Source of the DNA: a virus
Strand: one strand, 5' to 3'
Length of the DNA stretch: 42,114 nucleotides
IMG/VR virus record: IMGVR_UViG_3300020129_000172
Location: 1 to 42,114 of that record
The notes under the pieces were generated by a model. It was not told the DNA's origin and ran no database searches. It worked only from the letters and a program-made list of their open reading frames with translations. The position numbers and the translations under genes are program-made. Each line of letters begins with the position of its first letter. Within the stretch, counting starts at the first letter, position 1. Positions 1 to 42,114 of the stretch are shown piece after piece.

Positions 1-127
1 ATGTACACGTCGAGCGCGACCCGGCTTTGATTGAGTACGAACGACGAGCCTTCGTACTCCAACTGAGTACCTTCAAATGAAACTCGCCCAACTCGAAACC
101 GACCTGGCGGCAGTCGCCACACGCGCG
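1..127. repeat. Terminal direct repeat, left copy (circular-contig overlap)
   Basis: The first 127 bases are identical to 41988-42114. The repeat covers the last codons of the S49 protease and the first 17 codons of the capsid gene, so it has no gene-boundary logic of its own. A length of 127 equals a common largest assembly k-mer, which fits an assembler closing a circular or circularly permuted genome. A true short terminal repeat is less likely. Confidence 0.93.
3..80 (+). CDS. S49 head-maturation protease, C-terminal fragment (duplicate of the copy at the right end)
   Basis: Read in frame 3, this stretch ends in ...FVLQLSTFK and a TGA at 78-80. It is the same C-terminus as the protease at 41066-42067. 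It is only a fragment because the circular genome was cut here. The stop overlaps the capsid start (ATGA at 77-80), so protease and capsid are translationally coupled. Confidence 0.93.
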   Translation, partial: VHVERDPALIEYERRAFVLQLSTFK

Positions 128-18609: not shown

Positions 18610-18797
18610 GATGTCGCGCTCCAGTCCTGCAACAGCTGCAGAATGATGGCGCGACGGGATACCCCATCGCGCTTGCACTTGTCCGCGACCCGACGCCACA
18701 GTGGCGCCGGGATGTGATCCAGCAGATAGGCCTTTTCCGTGTCCTTGTTCGGCGTGAAGTCGCGGGAGTAGCCGCGCTTCGTCGGTCGGGTCGCCAT
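18606..18797 (-). CDS. Small ribbon-helix-helix-like DNA-binding protein
   Basis: This 63-residue protein has a basic N-terminus (ATRPTKRGYSRDF), then HIPAPLWRRVADKCKRDGVS and RRAIILQLLQDW. That strand-helix-turn-helix spacing fits Arc/MetJ-type ribbon-helix-helix folds. It is two genes upstream of the integrase in the same overlapping operon, so regulation of that operon or an excisionase-like role is possible. Confidence 0.6.
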   Translation of the reverse strand: MATRPTKRGYSRDFTPNKDTEKAYLLDHIPAPLWRRVADKCKRDGVSRRAIILQLLQDWSATS

Positions 18798-19162
18798 CAG
18801 TATTCCTCCGTCAGCATGATCGTAAGCAGTCGGTAACAGGACAGGTGCGGATCCTCCGCGCCGTATTCCATGGCGTCGGAGTCGTAGTAATCGAACTTGA
18901 AGAAGACGGCGACCCCGTCGACGACGATCCGGCCGAAGTCATGTTCGCCGTAGGGATCGTTGTCGCGGGTGAACTGGTCGAAGCGGGCCACGGCCTGCAG
19001 GACGGCCAGCCGGTGGACGTCCGACAATGCCGCAATGCCGGACGTCATGACGGTGCGCCCGTCCGGTCGACCGTTGGCGACGAAGACATCCAAGATCGAC
19101 AGCCGACGACGATAGGCATCGTTGGCGGCTGCGATGCGGGCGGTGCGTTCGGTTGACGTCAT
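18797..19162 (-). CDS. DUF3768 family protein
   Basis: This 121-residue protein uses ATG 19162, which overlaps the stop of the 45-residue gene upstream. The hallmark pattern of DUF3768 is present: ARIAAANDAYRR at the start, VMTSGIAAL, then FTRDNDPYGEHDFG, FKFDYYDSD and a C-terminal RLLTIMLTEEY. The family is common in alphaproteobacterial plasmids, mobile elements and phages, and its function is unknown. Length is normal for the family. Confidence 0.88.
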   Translation of the reverse strand: MTSTERTARIAAANDAYRRRLSILDVFVANGRPDGRTVMTSGIAALSDVHRLAVLQAVARFDQFTRDNDPYGEHDFGRIVVDGVAVFFKFDYYDSDAMEYGAEDPHLSCYRLLTIMLTEEY

Positions 19163-19296
19163 GACTGCCTCCGGCGGGCGCGCAATTCCTTCAGCGTCAT
19201 GCACGCGATGCAGGGACCGACACGGTCGACGCGGGCACCGCAGCCGCGCGTGCAGGTCTTCGTTCGCAGCTTCACGATCGGTCGTCGTCGTTTCAT
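19159..19296 (-). CDS. Very small zinc-binding protein (45 aa)
   Basis: ATG 19296 overlaps the stop of the gene upstream and the TGA at 19159-19161 overlaps the DUF3768 start. The product is basic (MKRRRPIVKLRTK) and has a compact C-x3-C...C-x2-C knuckle (CTRGC, then CIACM). Coupling on both sides supports a real gene despite the length. Function unknown; possibly nucleic-acid binding. Confidence 0.62.
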   Translation of the reverse strand: MKRRRPIVKLRTKTCTRGCGARVDRVGPCIACMTLKELRARRRQS

Positions 19297-33891: not shown

Positions 33892-34112
33892 TGATGCACC
33901 GCATCGACGTCCGCGCGTTACATAAGCCGCTGATGGATGCGGGCATCGTGCCGGCTAACTGTCGCCTGATGTCGATGCAGATCGGCACCAGCGGCGGACT
34001 GGTCGTCGTCTACGAGGTCTTCCTGACCGCCGCGCAGCTGGTGCAGCTGGGTCAGATTTTTCAAACCGTCGGCGACAGCTTCGACGCCACACCCGAGGAC
34101 GGCAACCGATGA
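33891..34112 (+). CDS. Small hypothetical protein
   Basis: This is 73 residues from ATG 33891 (TGATG). LRMSMQ-type strand content (CRLMSMQIGTSGGLVVVYEV) followed by a helix (TAAQLVQLGQIFQTVGD). No recognised family. It precedes the HNH packaging endonuclease and overlaps its start. Confidence 0.55.
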   Translation: MMHRIDVRALHKPLMDAGIVPANCRLMSMQIGTSGGLVVVYEVFLTAAQLVQLGQIFQTVGDSFDATPEDGNR

Positions 34113-34450
34113 CGACGACGGCCCCGCTCCGACCCTGCACCTATCCGCGCTGCGCCAATCTGGTCGACGGTGGCGGCCGCTGTCCGACGCATCGACCGAC
34201 CGAAGCCGACCGGCCCAACGCCGACGTCCGGACCTGGTATCGCACGCCACGCTGGCGGGCGCTGCGAACGGTGGTCCTGCGGGACCAACCCTACTGCGCC
34301 GACTGCGCCCGCGAAGGACGCCGCGTGCCGACGACCGACGTGGACCATATCGAACCGCATCGCGGCGATGCCGGTCTGTTCTGGAGTCGGCAGAACCTGC
34401 AGGCGCTCTGTCATCGCCATCACAGCGCGAAGACCGGCCGGGGGGCGTGA
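34109..34450 (+). CDS. HNH endonuclease (terminase-associated)
   Basis: In this 113-residue protein, a CTYPRC...CPTHR zinc knuckle opens the protein; WYRTPRWRALRTVVL and PYCADCAREGRRVPTTDVDH precede the HNH core DHIEPH...NLQALCHRHHSAKT. HNH proteins of this kind beside terminase are needed with the large terminase for cohesive-end cutting in HK97-type phages. Only five genes separate it from the terminase, so this phage probably has cos packaging. Confidence 0.9.
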   Translation: MTTTAPLRPCTYPRCANLVDGGGRCPTHRPTEADRPNADVRTWYRTPRWRALRTVVLRDQPYCADCAREGRRVPTTDVDHIEPHRGDAGLFWSRQNLQALCHRHHSAKTGRGA

Positions 34451-34596
34451 TGCCGATGAGTACCCCTTGCGTAATTTCGCCAAAATGCGTGCCGCCTCGC
34501 GAGCGGTTCTTCGCAGCGACATTCTCTGAGCGATGGGAACAGCCCCCCGGCATCTACCCGGTGTGGCAGGCGTCTGGCCTGCAGGAGGCACGATGA
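34450..34596 (+). CDS. Small hypothetical protein (48 aa)
   Basis: ATG 34450 overlaps the HNH stop (TGATG) and the TGA at 34594-34596 overlaps the ParB-like start (ATGA). The product has PPRERFFAATFSERWEQPPG and ends VWQASGLQEAR. Its codon use is less GC-biased in the first half. Coupling on both sides is the main support; no family is recognised. Confidence 0.5.
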   Translation: MPMSTPCVISPKCVPPRERFFAATFSERWEQPPGIYPVWQASGLQEAR

Positions 34597-35330
34597 GACG
34601 ACGAGTCGACCATTCAGCCGACCGACCGGACATCGCCGAGCCTCCGCCGTCTGTGTCGGTGGCGCCGACGACGACGGGGGCAGCCGAGGTCACAGGTGAT
34701 GTGGTGATGACCGTCGACCAGCTGCAGGCCGATCCGCATAACCGGCGGCGTCACGACGAGCGCAATATCGGGATGGTGGCCGATGCCTTGCGGCAGGTCG
34801 GCGCCGCGCGATCGATCGTGGTCGACGAGGCGGACCTCATCTTGGCGGGCAATGGCGTGGTGGAAGCGGCCAAGCAGGCAGGCATCACCCGCATTCGGAT
34901 CATCGAAGCCGACGGCACCGAGGTGATTGCCGTCCGGCGGCGTGGCCTGACCGACGAGCAGAAACGGGCACTGGCGATGTTCGATAACCGCACGGCGGAA
35001 TTGTCGGAGTGGAATTACGACCAGCTGCGGGCGGATCGCGCGGCGGGCCTCGACCTGCAGCCGTTCTGGACCGACGGCGAACAGGCGATGATGTTCGGAC
35101 AGGCGGTGGATCCGACGTGGAAGGGGATGCCGTCCTTCGACCATGAAGACACCACGGCGTATCGCACCATCCGTGTACACTTCGCCAATCAAGAGGACCT
35201 GGACGCCTTCGCGAAGCTGATTGGCCAGACGGTCACCGAAGAAACGAAGTATCTGTGGTTCCCGCCTGCCGAGACCGATCCGCACATCGCACACCAGTTC
35301 GTCAGTCCTGACGCCGATAAGCAGACTTGA
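34593..35330 (+). CDS. ParB/Srx-like domain protein
   Basis: This is 245 residues from ATG 34593, with AGGAGG six bases upstream. Residues of about 40-110 follow the ParB/sulfiredoxin nuclease fold: DQLQADPHNRRRHDERNIGM, then VVDEADLILAGNGVVEAAKQ and DGTEVIAVRRRGLTDEQKRA, then LAMFDNRTAELSEWN. The C-terminal part is a separate mixed domain. In phages such proteins often accompany base-modification genes. Here the next gene is a TET-associated-type glycosyltransferase, with which it forms an abutting pair (start at 35331, directly after the stop). Confidence 0.85.
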   Translation: MRRRVDHSADRPDIAEPPPSVSVAPTTTGAAEVTGDVVMTVDQLQADPHNRRRHDERNIGMVADALRQVGAARSIVVDEADLILAGNGVVEAAKQAGITRIRIIEADGTEVIAVRRRGLTDEQKRALAMFDNRTAELSEWNYDQLRADRAAGLDLQPFWTDGEQAMMFGQAVDPTWKGMPSFDHEDTTAYRTIRVHFANQEDLDAFAKLIGQTVTEETKYLWFPPAETDPHIAHQFVSPDADKQT

Positions 35331-36221
35331 ATGAATCCGCGCTTTCCGATTTACATCGTGTCGAAGGGTCGGCATCAACCGACACGCCGCTTGACGTCGC
35401 GGGCCTTCGAAGCGATGGGCGTGCCGTACTTCATCATCGTGGAAGCCGCCGAGTACGACCTGTATGCGGCAGGCATTGATGCGAAGAAGATCCTCGTCCT
35501 CGATCCGGCGTTTCAGGACCGCTACGAAACCTTCGACGACTTAGGCACCAGCAAGAGTAAGGGACCGGGCGCCGCGCGGAACTTTGCATGGACGCATGCA
35601 AAGGCATCCGGCGCTCCATGGCACTGGGTCATGGATGACAACATCCGCCGGTTCTCCCGGCTGCAACACAATTCGAAAACGCGGGCCGGAGACGGCACGA
35701 TCTTCCGCTGCATGGAGGACTTCTGCCTGCGGTACGCCAATGTGGCGATGGCTGGTCCGAACTACGAGCACTTCGTGACGCGCAAGGTCGACACGACGCC
35801 GCCGTACGTGCTGAATACGCGGATCTACAGCTGCAACCTGATTCGCAACGATGCGCCCTTCCACTGGCGTGGCCGCTACAACGAAGACACGGACCTCTCG
35901 CTGCAGATGCTGAAACGCGGCTGGGTCACGGTGCAGTTCAATGCGTTCCTCCAGAAGAAGATGGAAACGCAGACGGTGAAAGGCGGCTGTGATCGGGACT
36001 TCTACGCCGTCGAAGGGACACGGCCGAAGTCGGAAATGCTCGTCCGCATGCATCCGGACGTGGCGCAGCTGGTCTGGAAGTTCGGCCGCTGGCACCATCA
36101 CGTCGACTATCGGCCGTTCAAGCACAATCGCCTCATCCTGGCCGACGGTGTCGTGGTGGCCGACGGGCCGGACGAATACGGGATGGTGCTGGTCGACAAG
36201 CCCAAAGGCATCGGCGCATGA
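35331..36221 (+). CDS. TET-associated-type glycosyltransferase (TAGT family)
   Basis: This is 296 residues starting directly after the ParB-like stop. The family pattern is strong: FPIYIVSKGRH at the N-terminus, YFIIVEAAEYDLYAAG, GAARNFAWTHA, then the acidic motif HWVMDDNIRRF (Asp102, Asp103), NTRIYSCNLIRND, WRGRYNEDTDLSLQMLKRGW (Glu185, Asp186, Asp188) and a late KGGCD. In the literature this family is predicted to add sugars to oxidised (hydroxymethyl) bases in phage DNA. No TET/JBP oxygenase is present in this genome, so the acceptor is uncertain. Start and length fit the family. Confidence 0.8.
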   Translation: MNPRFPIYIVSKGRHQPTRRLTSRAFEAMGVPYFIIVEAAEYDLYAAGIDAKKILVLDPAFQDRYETFDDLGTSKSKGPGAARNFAWTHAKASGAPWHWVMDDNIRRFSRLQHNSKTRAGDGTIFRCMEDFCLRYANVAMAGPNYEHFVTRKVDTTPPYVLNTRIYSCNLIRNDAPFHWRGRYNEDTDLSLQMLKRGWVTVQFNAFLQKKMETQTVKGGCDRDFYAVEGTRPKSEMLVRMHPDVAQLVWKFGRWHHHVDYRPFKHNRLILADGVVVADGPDEYGMVLVDKPKGIGA

Positions 36222-36694
36222 GGGGCCGCAAGCCGCGATCGACGGTGATGCGGATCATCACCAACAATCCGAGTGGTCGGCCGTTCAATGACCGGGAACC
36301 GGCCGCCGCGCCGCTCGACACCGTCTGTCCGGCCGAACTGGAAGATCCGATCGCGCAGACCGAATGGGTACGCGGCATTGTGCCCGCGATCGAAGTGGGC
36401 CAGATTACTGCCGCCGATCGGACGCTGGCGATTGCCCACTGCGAACTGTGGGCGACCTGGCGCAGCCAGCTGGCCGACGCCAGTCGTCACGCGCACGTCA
36501 TCGCCGCAGGCGTCAATAAGTACCCGATGCCCAATCCGGCCCGCGTCATGGCGAACAAAACGCTCTTACTGTTGGCGAAGGTCGATGCGGAACTCGGCCT
36601 GTCGCCCACGTCGCGCACGCGCGTGCAGGTCCACGGTCGCCTGCAGCCGGGGAATCCGCTCGATCGCTTCCTGTCTCGGAGTAGTCGGCGATGA
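36218..36694 (+). CDS. terS: Terminase small subunit (P27 family)
   Basis: This is 158 residues from ATG 36218 (ATGA overlap). The P27-type pattern is visible: RGRKPRSTVMRIITNNPSGR, P.NDREPAAAPLDTVCPAEL, TEWVRGIVPAIEVGQITAAD and a helical C-terminus. It recognises the packaging site and hands DNA to the large subunit encoded next (ATGA overlap). Confidence 0.85.
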   Translation: MRGRKPRSTVMRIITNNPSGRPFNDREPAAAPLDTVCPAELEDPIAQTEWVRGIVPAIEVGQITAADRTLAIAHCELWATWRSQLADASRHAHVIAAGVNKYPMPNPARVMANKTLLLLAKVDAELGLSPTSRTRVQVHGRLQPGNPLDRFLSRSSRR

Positions 36695-38424
36695 CCGACG
36701 GCGCCACGCAGTATGCCCGCGACGTGTTGGCGGGTCGCATCGTGGCCGGCCGCAAGGTCCGGTTGGCGTGTCAGCGGCACATCGACGATCTGAAGTTCCG
36801 CCGCGAGCGCGGCTTGCTCTGGCGGGCCTCGGAAGTGCAGCGCGTCGTCGACTTCTTCCGCGAAATTCTCTGCCTGCCGGAAGAAACCGCCAGCGATGAA
36901 ATTGTCTCATCGACCGTGCAGGCGACGACCGGCACGCCGTTCGTGCTCCAACCGTTTCAGGTCTTCATCGTCGGCAGTCTGATGGGCTGGTATACGCGGC
37001 AAGGGTATCGCCGCTTCCGTGACGGATATCTCGAGATAGCCAAGGGTGGCGGCAAAACGCCGCTCGGGGCGGGCTTGATGCTCTACCTGCTGGTCGCGGA
37101 TGGCGAGCGCGGGGCGCAGGTCTACTTCGCGGCAGTGACGCGCGAACAGGCACGGCTGGCGTTTGCCGATGCCGAAAAAATGGTGCAGGCGTCTCCGCAT
37201 CTGCATGCGCTCATCACGCAGACGGTGAACAACCTGGCGGTGGTGTCGAGCGGCTCCTACCTGCGGGCGATCTCATCGGAGAAACGGGGCCTTGATGGCA
37301 AGCGGGTCCACGGCTGTCTGATCGACGAACTGCACGAACACGCGACACCGGTCGTCGTCACCAAGATGCGGCGCGGTACGAAAGGTCGACGCAACGCGCT
37401 CGTACTCCGAACCACTAACTCCGGCTTCGATCGATCGTCGGTCTGCTGGCAACAGCACCAGTACTCCGTGCAGGTCTTGGAGGGCAGCGTCCGCGACGAG
37501 GCGTGGTTTGCGTTCATCTGCGGCCTCGATCCGTGTGCGGCGTGTCTGCGGGCCGGTCGAGACTTTCCGGCCGACGACTGCGAGCACTGCGACAGCTGGA
37601 AGACCGAAGGCCCGCATTGGCTGAAAGCGAATCCGAATCTCGGCGTGTCGTTGTCGTGGCAGTATCTGCGCGAACTGGTCCGGCAGGCGGCCGGGATGCC
37701 CGCCGCCGTGTCCGACCTGCTGCGCTTCAACTTCTGCGTCTGGACACAACAGCAGCTGCGGTTCCTCGACATGGGCGCGTGGCATGCCTGTCCGCCGATC
37801 GACGAGTCCGATCTGGTCGATGCGACCGTGTATGGCGGACTCGACTTGGGCCAGTCCGACGACCTGTGCGCGTTCGTCCTGCTGTGGGTGTTGGCGGATG
37901 GCCGCATGGCGGTCCGCTCACGGTTCTGGCTGCCATCGGCGGCGCTGCAGCGATATCCGGATCGGCCCTACGATGTCTGGCGCCGCTACGGCCACCTGAC
38001 CGTCACCGACGGCAACATCACCGACTATCAGCAGGTTGAGGATGCCGTCGGCGATGACTGCATCGACTACGGCGTCCGCGAGTGCGCCTTTGACAAACGG
38101 TTCGCCAACCAGATGGCGCAGAACCTGATGGGCCGGGGCATCACCATGATCGACATGCCGCAGGGCTACTTCCTGAACGAAGCCCTGCGGAAGTTGTCCG
38201 ACCTGGTCGCCACCGGCACGCTGCTGCACGGCGACAATCCGATCCTCACCGCCATGGCGGCGAATGCCGTCGTCCGCCATGGGCGGAACAAAACGATCCG
38301 CCTCGACAAGGACACCGCCGCCGAAAAGATCGACGGCATCGCGGCACTGGCGATGGCGATCGGACGCGCTATCGCGGTTCCCCCAGAAGTGCCGGCCGAC
38401 GATCCGAACTTGGTGATCGCATGA
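36691..38424 (+). CDS. terL: Terminase large subunit (HK97-like)
   Basis: In this 577-residue protein the ATPase domain has Walker A LEIAKGGGKT (Lys122, Thr123) and Walker B GCLIDELHEH (Asp212, Glu213). The nuclease domain has GGLDLGQSDD (Asp385) and a final AAEKIDGIAALAMAIGRA. Between them a four-cysteine cluster (Cys282, Cys285, Cys297, Cys300: PCAACL and DCEHCD) forms a likely zinc knuckle that is uncommon in this family. The size fits. With the HNH protein upstream this supports cos-type packaging. Confidence 0.93.
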   Translation: MTDGATQYARDVLAGRIVAGRKVRLACQRHIDDLKFRRERGLLWRASEVQRVVDFFREILCLPEETASDEIVSSTVQATTGTPFVLQPFQVFIVGSLMGWYTRQGYRRFRDGYLEIAKGGGKTPLGAGLMLYLLVADGERGAQVYFAAVTREQARLAFADAEKMVQASPHLHALITQTVNNLAVVSSGSYLRAISSEKRGLDGKRVHGCLIDELHEHATPVVVTKMRRGTKGRRNALVLRTTNSGFDRSSVCWQQHQYSVQVLEGSVRDEAWFAFICGLDPCAACLRAGRDFPADDCEHCDSWKTEGPHWLKANPNLGVSLSWQYLRELVRQAAGMPAAVSDLLRFNFCVWTQQQLRFLDMGAWHACPPIDESDLVDATVYGGLDLGQSDDLCAFVLLWVLADGRMAVRSRFWLPSAALQRYPDRPYDVWRRYGHLTVTDGNITDYQQVEDAVGDDCIDYGVRECAFDKRFANQMAQNLMGRGITMIDMPQGYFLNEALRKLSDLVATGTLLHGDNPILTAMAANAVVRHGRNKTIRLDKDTAAEKIDGIAALAMAIGRAIAVPPEVPADDPNLVIA

Positions 38425-38603
38425 CGGAGTCCCGCAAGCCGGTCGGACGGCCGCGACTGGACCGCAAAGATACGACGACCCGGCTCAGTGTCTCGCTGCC
38501 GTCGCGGCAATATGACCGCTTCTATCAGCAGGCCCAGCACGATCGGATCAGCGTCGGCGAAGCCATCCGCCGCCAGCTGCAGGACGACGACGACGAGGCG
38601 TGA
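38421..38603 (+). CDS. Small ribbon-helix-helix / AT-hook-like protein
   Basis: This is 60 residues from ATG 38421 (ATGA). It contains an AT-hook-like GRPRLDRK and then TTTRLSVSLPSRQYDRFYQQ and ISVGEAIRRQLQ, a CopG/Arc-type ribbon-helix-helix layout. It could regulate the methyltransferase whose start overlaps its stop, or assist packaging. Unproven. Confidence 0.65.
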   Translation: MTESRKPVGRPRLDRKDTTTRLSVSLPSRQYDRFYQQAQHDRISVGEAIRRQLQDDDDEA

Positions 38604-39463
38604 TGCATGGGATGGCTCTTTGTGCCGGGATTGGGGGACTGGAACTCGGCGTCGGGTTCGTCCTTGCCGAGTACCGCACCGTCGTGTACGTGGAACGCGA
38701 AGCCTTTGCCGCCGCGCAGCTGGTCGCGCGCATGGCAGCGGGTCAGCTGGCTGCGGCGCCTGTCTGGGACGACGTGCGGACCTTCGACGGCCGACGCTGG
38801 CGTGGCGTCGTGGATTGTGTCACTGCCGGATTCCCCTGCCAGCCGTGGAGTAAAGCCGGACCCGATACCGGCACCGACGATGCCCGCTGGGTCTGGCCGG
38901 ATATCCTCGACCGCATTGGCGAAGTGGGATCCGCGATCGTCTTCTTGGAAAATGTCCCTCCCCTTGTTTCCCGAGGAGGACTGGCCACCGTACTCGGCGG
39001 ACTGGCCGACGGCGGGTACGCTGCGGAATGGGGTTATCTCGCCGCGTCCGCCGTTGGGGCATCCCATGAACGCCTGCGCGTCTTCATCCTGGCCTACCGC
39101 GACGGCCTCCGACTCCGACGACAAGTGGCCGACCCCGGCGAGCCGCGACTACAAGGGCGAGAACGCCAGCGTGCATCTCGATCACGCCAGCGGCCGGAAA
39201 CATCTCGACCAGCTGCCGAACTTCATCGCGTACTGTTTCCCCCTCGCCCCACCGACACCGCCGGGTGGCGTTTCGTCTTCGCCGATCGGCCGGACCTCGC
39301 CCCGGCACTCAGTGCCGCGCATCAACGTCAGCTTTGTGGAATGGCTGATGGGCTTTCCTATCGGCTGGACCGACTCCGGGCTGTCGGCAACGGAGTGGTC
39401 CCGCTACAGGCAGCGTATGCGTTTGTCGCTTTGGCGACTCGCGCAGGCCTGTGGGCAGACTGA
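38603..39463 (+). CDS. C5-cytosine DNA methyltransferase
   Basis: This is 286 residues from ATG 38603 (GTG 38600 possible). Motif I LCAGIGGLELG, motif IV GFPCQPWS (catalytic Cys79), motif VI ENVPPL (Glu116), motif VIII GASHERLRVFILA and the closing RLRAVGNGVVPLQAAYAF (motifs IX-X) are all present. The C-terminal part (DLAPALSA...GMADGLSYRLDR) is normal for one subfamily. The target-recognition region between motifs VIII and IX is Arg-rich and unusually poor in character, and in the +1 frame the same DNA encodes a different methyltransferase-type segment. Its role would be self-protection from host restriction, or supply of modified C. Confidence 0.9.
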   Translation: MHGMALCAGIGGLELGVGFVLAEYRTVVYVEREAFAAAQLVARMAAGQLAAAPVWDDVRTFDGRRWRGVVDCVTAGFPCQPWSKAGPDTGTDDARWVWPDILDRIGEVGSAIVFLENVPPLVSRGGLATVLGGLADGGYAAEWGYLAASAVGASHERLRVFILAYRDGLRLRRQVADPGEPRLQGRERQRASRSRQRPETSRPAAELHRVLFPPRPTDTAGWRFVFADRPDLAPALSAAHQRQLCGMADGLSYRLDRLRAVGNGVVPLQAAYAFVALATRAGLWAD

Positions 39464-39479
39464 ATTAGTGAAGCGTTAA
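38607..39479 (+). CDS. Overlapping +1-frame reading frame with methyltransferase-type TRD pattern
   Basis: This frame is open for 290 codons inside the C5-methyltransferase gene. From about 38925 it reads RSSSWKMSLPLFPEEDWPPY, DWPTAGTLRNGVISPRPPLG, KWPTPASRDYKGENASVHLD and NVSFVEWLMGFPIGWTDSG. These are family-specific phrases (SSSWKTS, GTMRNG, WPTP..RD.KG, FVEWLMGFP.GWTD) seen in the recognition part of related phage methyltransferases. The part before about 38925 is not convincing and may not be translated. ATG 38952 is a possible internal start. Expression could be by internal initiation or frameshift; neither is proven. Confidence 0.55.
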   Translation: MGWLFVPGLGDWNSASGSSLPSTAPSCTWNAKPLPPRSWSRAWQRVSWLRRLSGTTCGPSTADAGVASWIVSLPDSPASRGVKPDPIPAPTMPAGSGRISSTALAKWDPRSSSWKMSLPLFPEEDWPPYSADWPTAGTLRNGVISPRPPLGHPMNACASSSWPTATASDSDDKWPTPASRDYKGENASVHLDHASGRKHLDQLPNFIAYCFPLAPPTPPGGVSSSPIGRTSPRHSVPRINVSFVEWLMGFPIGWTDSGLSATEWSRYRQRMRLSLWRLAQACGQTELVKR

Positions 39480-41082: not shown

Positions 41083-42067
41083 CTACGCGCACCTCGTCGC
41101 CTTCGCCTTGGAACATCCATGGGCGATTACGCCACCGATGCGGGCGTTGATTGCCGATATCCTGGCTCGTCGACTGGCCGGCCTCGACGCCGACGACGCG
41201 GCCATTGCCGCCGCGATCGAAGCCCGCGCCACGCGCGATGTGCCGGTGCCGACCGGCGGATCGGTGGCGGTCATTCCGGTGCAAGGCGTCATCTCGCCGC
41301 GCATGAACCTGTTCACTGAAACGTCCGGCGGCACGACCTTCGAAGCCCTCACCAAGCAGCTGCAGGCGACCGTCAGTGACCCGAACGTCAAGACGATCGT
41401 CTTCGACGTCGACAGTCCCGGCGGCAACGTCGCAGGCGCCTCGGAGTTCGCCCGCGAAGTCCTCCGCGCCCGCACGGTAAAGCCGGTCATCGCCGTGGCC
41501 AATCACCTGATGGCGTCGGCGGCGTACTGGGCGATGTCGGGGGCCACGGAACTCATCGCGTCCCCGTCGGCGCTGGCCGGGGCCGTCGGGGTCTACACGA
41601 TCCACGACGACATCAGCGCGGCGCTCGGCGCACTGGGCGTCAAGCGCGAAGTCTTCTCGGCTGGCAAGTACAAAGCCGAAGGCGTCGACGGTGGACCGCT
41701 GTCCGACGACGCCAAGGCGCATGTGCAGGGACTGGTCGATGGCGCGTACGGCCGCATGGTCGGCGACATCGCCAAAGGACGCGGCATCCGACCGGCCGAC
41801 GTCCGCGACGGCTATGGACAAGGCCGCACGCTGGGGGCGGAACAAGCCCTCAGTGCCGGTCTGATCGATCGCATTGCCACGCTCCACGAAACGCTCGCGC
41901 GTGTCATGCAGCCGACGACCGCTGTCGCCGGATCGACACGCGCTGCGGTTGACGCCCCACCTGTACACACGGACTCGCGATCCAACTATGTACACGTCGA
42001 GCGCGACCCGGCTTTGATTGAGTACGAACGACGAGCCTTCGTACTCCAACTGAGTACCTTCAAATGA
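41066..42067 (+). CDS. S49 (SppA/ClpP-fold) head maturation protease
   Basis: In this 333-residue protein, GSVAVIPVQGVISPRMNLF begins the ClpP-fold core, VFDVDSPGGNVAG is the oxyanion region, NHLMASAAYWAM holds the catalytic Ser151, and FSAGKYKAEG holds Lys203. The 52-residue Ser-Lys spacing equals that of B. subtilis SppA. It removes the capsid delta domain in the prohead. The last 27 codons are repeated at the left end of the window because the genome is circular, and the stop overlaps the capsid start. Confidence 0.93.
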   Translation: MPTPRNYAHLVAFALEHPWAITPPMRALIADILARRLAGLDADDAAIAAAIEARATRDVPVPTGGSVAVIPVQGVISPRMNLFTETSGGTTFEALTKQLQATVSDPNVKTIVFDVDSPGGNVAGASEFAREVLRARTVKPVIAVANHLMASAAYWAMSGATELIASPSALAGAVGVYTIHDDISAALGALGVKREVFSAGKYKAEGVDGGPLSDDAKAHVQGLVDGAYGRMVGDIAKGRGIRPADVRDGYGQGRTLGAEQALSAGLIDRIATLHETLARVMQPTTAVAGSTRAAVDAPPVHTDSRSNYVHVERDPALIEYERRAFVLQLSTFK

Positions 42068-42114
42068 AACTCGCCCAACTCGAAACCGACCTGGCGGCAG
42101 TCGCCACACGCGCG
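41988..42114. repeat. Terminal direct repeat, right copy
   Basis: Exact copy of 1-127. Removing one copy gives a circle of 41,987 bp in which protease and capsid genes are both intact and adjacent. Confidence 0.93.
42064..42114 (+). CDS. Major capsid protein, N-terminal fragment (duplicate of the copy at 77)
   Basis: The first 17 codons (MKLAQLETDLAAVATRA) repeat those at 77-127; the reading frame runs off the contig end. It is not a second gene. Confidence 0.93.
   Translation, partial: MKLAQLETDLAAVATRA

Follow-up and report, generated by a model that had tools for sequence, protein, structure and literature searches.

TET/JBP-TAGT hypermodification cassettes were reportedly described in phages by Iyer et al. 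in 2013. A TAGT is also found in phage T6, where the T-even beta-glucosyl-HMC-alpha-glucosyltransferase (PF20691) reportedly adds a second glucose on phage DNA (PMC13216743, PMC13390438). In the Gordonia DR-cluster phage CaiB, a modification cassette that precedes the terminase combines a ParB-like gene with genes for TET/JBP, a pyrophosphorylase and a kinase (PMC9302106). In addition, among 753 phage genomes with glycosyltransferases of the T-even type, 288 carry solitary TAGT homologues, unaccompanied by alpha-GT or beta-GT; this large group was flagged as unexplained in 2026, in an account that does not mention ParB (PMC13216743).

The 42,114-nt viral record IMGVR_UViG_3300020129_000172 (the whole stretch analysed here, referred to as the window) bears a likeness to each of these systems. 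Its TAGT likewise lacks an accompanying alpha-GT or beta-GT and, as in the TET/JBP-TAGT cassettes, lies in a phage cluster with modification-type genes; as in CaiB, a ParB-like gene forms part of a 4-bp-overlapping gene set just before the terminase. However, while the CaiB cassette uses TET/JBP, a pyrophosphorylase and a kinase, with TAGT unmentioned there (PMC9302106), that of the window has a TAGT. This enzyme shares with its T6 counterpart the PF20691 family, a predicted GT-A fold and its encoding by a phage. Nevertheless, T6 TAGT adjoins a thymidylate-synthase-family gene that supplies 5hmC, whereas the window has no PF00303 match; T6 TAGT has neither a partner domain nor a ParB, both of which are present in the window module, and it is not matched by an HMM of the window TAGT clade. 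Modification cassettes that precede the terminase and include a ParB-like gene are already known, from Gordonia DR phages and together with TET/JBP (PMC9302106); what is new here is the TAGT-partner domain, its obligate linkage to TAGT, the fusions that it enters and the split between loci according to ParB and terminase. A literature search, with Iyer et al. 2013 and Lee et al. 2025 lying outside it, found no paper combining ParB, hypermodification and a glycosyltransferase.

A closed phage genome with ParB-like, TAGT and terminase genes in tandem

The window has an exact direct terminal repeat of 127 bp, so that the genome is closed and comprises 41,987 unique bases; its gene order wraps from a portal gene (PF04860) and an S49 protease gene at the right end to a capsid protein gene at the left. 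As originally predicted, the ParB-like, TAGT, terminase and C5-methyltransferase genes proved to be adjacent, on the basis of Pfam and PHROG matches, and from the ParB-like gene through the methyltransferase neighbouring genes either adjoin directly or share 4 bp (Table 1). The ParB-like gene had been given a start at 34593, which is only an internal ATG; judging from homologues, the true start may lie later still, possibly near 34707.

Table 1. Features of the window in and around the ParB-like and TAGT genes
Feature	Position	Strand	Extent	Match or basis
HNH	34109-34450			
ParB-like gene	34533..35330	+	265 aa as longest ORF	phrog_620 1e-21
ParB/Srx-type domain	34695..35042	+	residues about 55-170	family alignment, model
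TAGT-partner domain	35118..35267	+	residues 196-245, ~51 aa	custom HMM
TAGT glycosyltransferase	35331..36221	+	296 aa	PF20691 7.5e-39
Terminase small subunit (TerS)	36218..36694	+	4-bp overlap with TAGT stop	PF05119 1.4e-11, phrog_83
Terminase large subunit (TerL)	36691..38424	+		PF20441 1.3e-32, PF03354 3e-24, phrog_9
60-aa ORF	between TerL and C5-methyltransferase		60 aa	
C5-cytosine methyltransferase	38600..39463	+		PF00145 9e-25
Direct terminal repeat	1..127			identical to 41988-42114

Two further ORFs were noted in this genome. A second long ORF (38607-39479) overlaps the C5-methyltransferase gene in another frame, forming an apparent dual-frame gene pair; its product matches phrog_1008, 'DNA methyltransferase' (1.5e-29), and is conserved at the protein level, other phages encoding sequences 30-39% identical to it (E as low as 1e-21). 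The other (18797-19204) lies on the minus strand of an otherwise plus-strand genome and matches DUF3768 (4.6e-26).

Predicted folds of the TAGT and ParB-like proteins

The match of the window TAGT to PF20691 extends across the whole profile and far exceeds the curated cut-off (134 bits against 27.5), with a further match to phrog_842 (E=7.6e-44). The catalytic motifs DDN (35634-35642) and NEDTD (35880-35894) are intact, and residues D102, D103, N104, N184 and D186 are conserved in 59/59 sequences in an alignment of relatives. By these sequence features, the protein is a catalytically intact PF20691 enzyme, with the DXD-type motif and acidic pair expected of a GT-A glycosyltransferase. The structure search proposed for TAGT was performed on a natural partner-domain-TAGT fusion, L032. 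In the AlphaFold model of this relative, the TAGT part adopts a confident GT-A fold and the partner domain is poorly modelled (pLDDT <50 at residues 1-24 and 55-68, where the alignment had three rows). The nearest solved structures found by Foldseek, with low TM-scores, were eukaryotic glycosyltransferases that act on proteins or glycans (LARGE1, GnT-I and COLGALT1), so that the search establishes the GT-A fold class and leaves the acceptor unfixed.

The window ParB-like protein matches the Pfam ParB_N profile weakly (E=0.096). A profile of its family, searched against the PDB, matched Spo0J/ParB/Noc at about 1e-11 and sulfiredoxin at 4e-5, together with pNOB8 ParB-N. An AlphaFold model of the protein (mean pLDDT 81, about 90 or above for residues 60-190) has a ParB/Srx fold, and a Foldseek search with this model returned a ParB-CDP match. 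By profile and predicted fold, the protein is thus a member of the ParB/Srx superfamily, resembling Spo0J, Noc, sulfiredoxin and SerK in its N-terminal domain. It differs from them in ending in the TAGT-partner domain, with no ParB dimerisation domain, and in its nucleotide-binding motif, which reads AGNGV (AGHGR in most relatives), so that the GxxR-type motif is not intact.

A domain of about 51 residues is the constant companion of TAGT

Using the C-terminal ~51 residues of ParB-like proteins that accompany TAGT relatives in IMG/VR, we built an HMM of the partner domain (consensus EWxGMPEFxQxD...IIVHFxxxEDVxxFAxLIxQxITxKTKSIW[FY]P). Among 105 non-redundant TAGT loci from viruses, 100 have the domain upstream of TAGT or fused to it, with one gene lying between the two in 6 of the 100. 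Four of the five loci without it are at contig edges, leaving L009 as the sole real exception. When IMG/VR was searched in the reverse direction, with the domain as sole query and over 500 hits, TAGT was present in 78/79 loci, the 79th (L110) being cut off by the contig end. Furthermore, the pairing holds for 46 of 52 loci from bacterial genomes, the others being truncated, partial or near a contig start; several of the module-bearing bacterial loci are clear prophages in isolates, and prophages with the module include those of Rhodovulum euryhalinum, Chryseobacterium and Xenophilus. On this co-occurrence in sequence data, the ~51-aa domain is the obligate partner of TAGT. It matched no Pfam or NCBIfam entry, and is touched by phrog_22103, a small PHROG of unknown function. 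The exceptional TAGT locus (L009:356-1333), which is away from the contig edge, has by eye a radical-SAM-like gene upstream.

The domain occurs in three architectures, with 57 of the 100 loci carrying it joined to ParB, 36 as a small stand-alone gene and 7 fused to TAGT. The ParB domain was ruled out as the conserved element, the constant part being its C-terminal extension only. The predicted ParB-TAGT pairing is real in the window, where the partner domain lies directly upstream of TAGT, but the relevant partner had been overlooked.

Fusions are also seen with other proteins. One locus (L275) encodes ParB_N, the partner domain and TAGT in a single ORF. In another, a 1061-aa ORF (L141:4179-7364) holds TAGT (phrog_842 1e-47) together with a DNA polymerase of family A (phrog_17, E=6e-132, residues 317-1061), and the partner domain is a separate gene just upstream. 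By eye, a uracil-DNA-glycosylase-like stretch lies between the TAGT and polymerase parts of this ORF. In L098 a DXD glycosyltransferase is joined to ParB and the partner domain, and in L020 ParB and the partner domain are joined with a further part that by eye resembles a glycosyltransferase.

The ParB-bearing form mostly lies upstream of the terminase

A TerL gene begins no more than 3 kb downstream of TAGT in 30/40 loci with ParB and the domain, 3/26 with the domain alone and 0/7 with the fused form. The difference between the first two groups (Fisher p=6e-7) spans five TerL clusters and is uncorrected for phylogeny; some divergent ParB domains, such as those of L012 and L026, escape the ParB HMM. 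By these counts, the ParB form is the packaging-side version of the module. Forms without ParB were found near replication genes, as in Vibrio phage henriette 12B8, where the neighbours include a clamp loader, a dUTPase and a DNA polymerase. The predicted tie to packaging is thus supported for the ParB-bearing form only.

We also counted shared genes by BLAST across 21 records of 29-57 kb, parts beyond 40 kb of some records being left out. The families closest to universal were TAGT (18 records) and the ParB/domain protein (15), followed by terminases (10 and 8). At BLAST sensitivity, no third gene common to these diverse phages was found beyond terminase/portal-type genes.

No dedicated base hydroxylase is detected with the module

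No Tet_JBP (PF12851) gene was detected in the closed window genome, and a Pfam scan of about 40 of its ORFs found no Fe/2OG oxygenase of recognisable sequence; a PF20515 profile search gave no match anywhere, controls included. A hidden TET/JBP was thus not found, although an oxygenase diverged beyond recognition may be encoded. Nor was Thymidylat_synt (PF00303) found in the window genome, which therefore has no detectable dCMP hydroxymethylase of that family. Since the genome is closed, these absences are not due to a fragmentary record.

The predicted lack of TET/JBP beside TAGT extends to the TAGT clade, setting it apart from the TET/JBP-TAGT cassettes: Tet_JBP exceeded the cut-off in 1/64 related viral IMG/VR records, 0/6 cultured phages and 0/4 closed genomes. 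In the one exception (G043, the L080 record), a true Tet_JBP (E=9e-27) lies tens of kb from TAGT. Thymidylat_synt was found in 1/49 module records, and this sole match (G032) is a fragment. The large cultured phages with the fused form, Aeh1, PTm1, POP12 and Kuja, together with henriette, do encode homologues of thymidylate synthase, possibly ordinary ThyA enzymes; in the partial genome of the small Vibrio phage 1.124.O, which has the fused form, neither such a homologue nor a PF12851 match was found. DNA_methylase (PF00145) is present in 7/49 module-bearing records, and the closed records G016, G009 and G059 lack this family, Tet_JBP and Thymidylat_synt alike. The C5-methyltransferase, proposed earlier as a partner in the pathway, therefore does not regularly belong to the module and was ruled out as a general partner. 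Together with the lack of a shared third gene, the absence or rarity of these families indicates that, at the sensitivity of our searches, no dedicated hydroxylase accompanies the module.

Candidate functions of the module

We lean, by a modest amount, towards a self-contained phage DNA-glycosylation module that operates without a phage-encoded TET or hydroxymethylase. Its target is probably phage DNA, as suggested by the polymerase fusion, the ParB fusions, the replication and packaging neighbours and the T6 relative. TAGT, its metal/nucleotide-sugar site intact, would move a sugar from a host nucleotide-sugar onto phage DNA and would be active only with the ~51-aa partner domain, acting as a putative adaptor or subunit. 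In the window, the ParB/Srx-type domain fused to the partner domain would be the DNA-targeting part that carries the complex to DNA. The position of the gene set just before the terminase suggests that modification would take place on concatemers awaiting packaging, and in phages without ParB the same TAGT-domain pair would work in a replication setting. A hydroxylated base, if needed, would be supplied by an unrecognised or host enzyme.

Several points sit less easily with DNA as the target. The nucleotide motif of the window ParB is degenerate (GNGV), and the window clade is so distant from T6 TAGT that the two need not share DNA as their target. To our knowledge, unmodified DNA bases offer no hydroxyl acceptor, which is awkward for a module without a hydroxylase. 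If DNA is the target, the acceptor must arise by a route not known today. One such route, which we consider very unlikely, is that TAGT and the partner domain glycosylate unhydroxylated DNA or a DNA end, where the sugar might be placed, for example, on a terminal group or an exocyclic amine, and that ParB couples the reaction to packaging; if true, this would be a chemistry independent of TET or hydroxymethylase. A different source of the acceptor was envisaged in the original prediction, in which methylation by the C5-methyltransferase is followed by oxidation through an over-diverged or host oxygenase and TAGT glycosylates the resulting 5hmC. For the window phage this is possible, given a C5-methyltransferase with a recognisable catalytic part 2.4 kb downstream of TAGT, and CaiB provides a precedent in its TET/JBP cassette with ParB before the terminase (PMC9302106). 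However, the scarcity of the methyltransferase among module-bearing records and closed genomes (1/4 of the latter), and the lack, at BLAST sensitivity, of any gene family beside the module common to the 21 records, make the route quite unlikely, and it does not describe the family.

Alternatively, TAGT and the partner domain might glycosylate protein, for instance part of the capsid, portal or terminase, or one of the host's own proteins. The protein/glycan glycosyltransferases among the nearest solved folds, the missing base hydroxylase and the head or packaging genes adjoining half of the module loci all fit such a target, but the fusions of TAGT to a DNA polymerase and to ParB/Srx domains, the replication genes near the ParB-less form and the presence of a T-even DNA enzyme in the TAGT family argue against it, and we judge it unlikely. 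It is most improbable that the module acts as a cassette for host takeover, altering host surface sugars in a seroconversion-like manner unrelated to DNA. Seroconversion enzymes usually carry membrane segments. Such a cassette would agree with the presence of the module in prophages and with the epimerases, further glycosyltransferases and sialyltransferase-like gene found in some module loci; it is at odds with the ParB and polymerase fusions and with the conserved position by terminase or replication genes.

The preferred reading, DNA glycosylation by TAGT with its partner domain, would bear on the evasion of restriction and CRISPR and on the timing of modification relative to packaging. Solitary TAGTs now have a genetic logic as well as an obligate partner, and the natural single-polypeptide fusions make the question of the TAGT substrate directly testable. 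Genes inserted into the module suggest that the first sugar is open to extension or methylation: glycosyltransferases and methyltransferases are found inserted or fused in some loci, including another glycosyltransferase between the partner domain and TAGT. In the Pantoea prophage L250, genes for a methyltransferase and a sialyltransferase-like protein lie immediately upstream. One kind of SAM methyltransferase is inserted between the partner domain and TAGT in L070-L075, L103, L107, L111 and L162.
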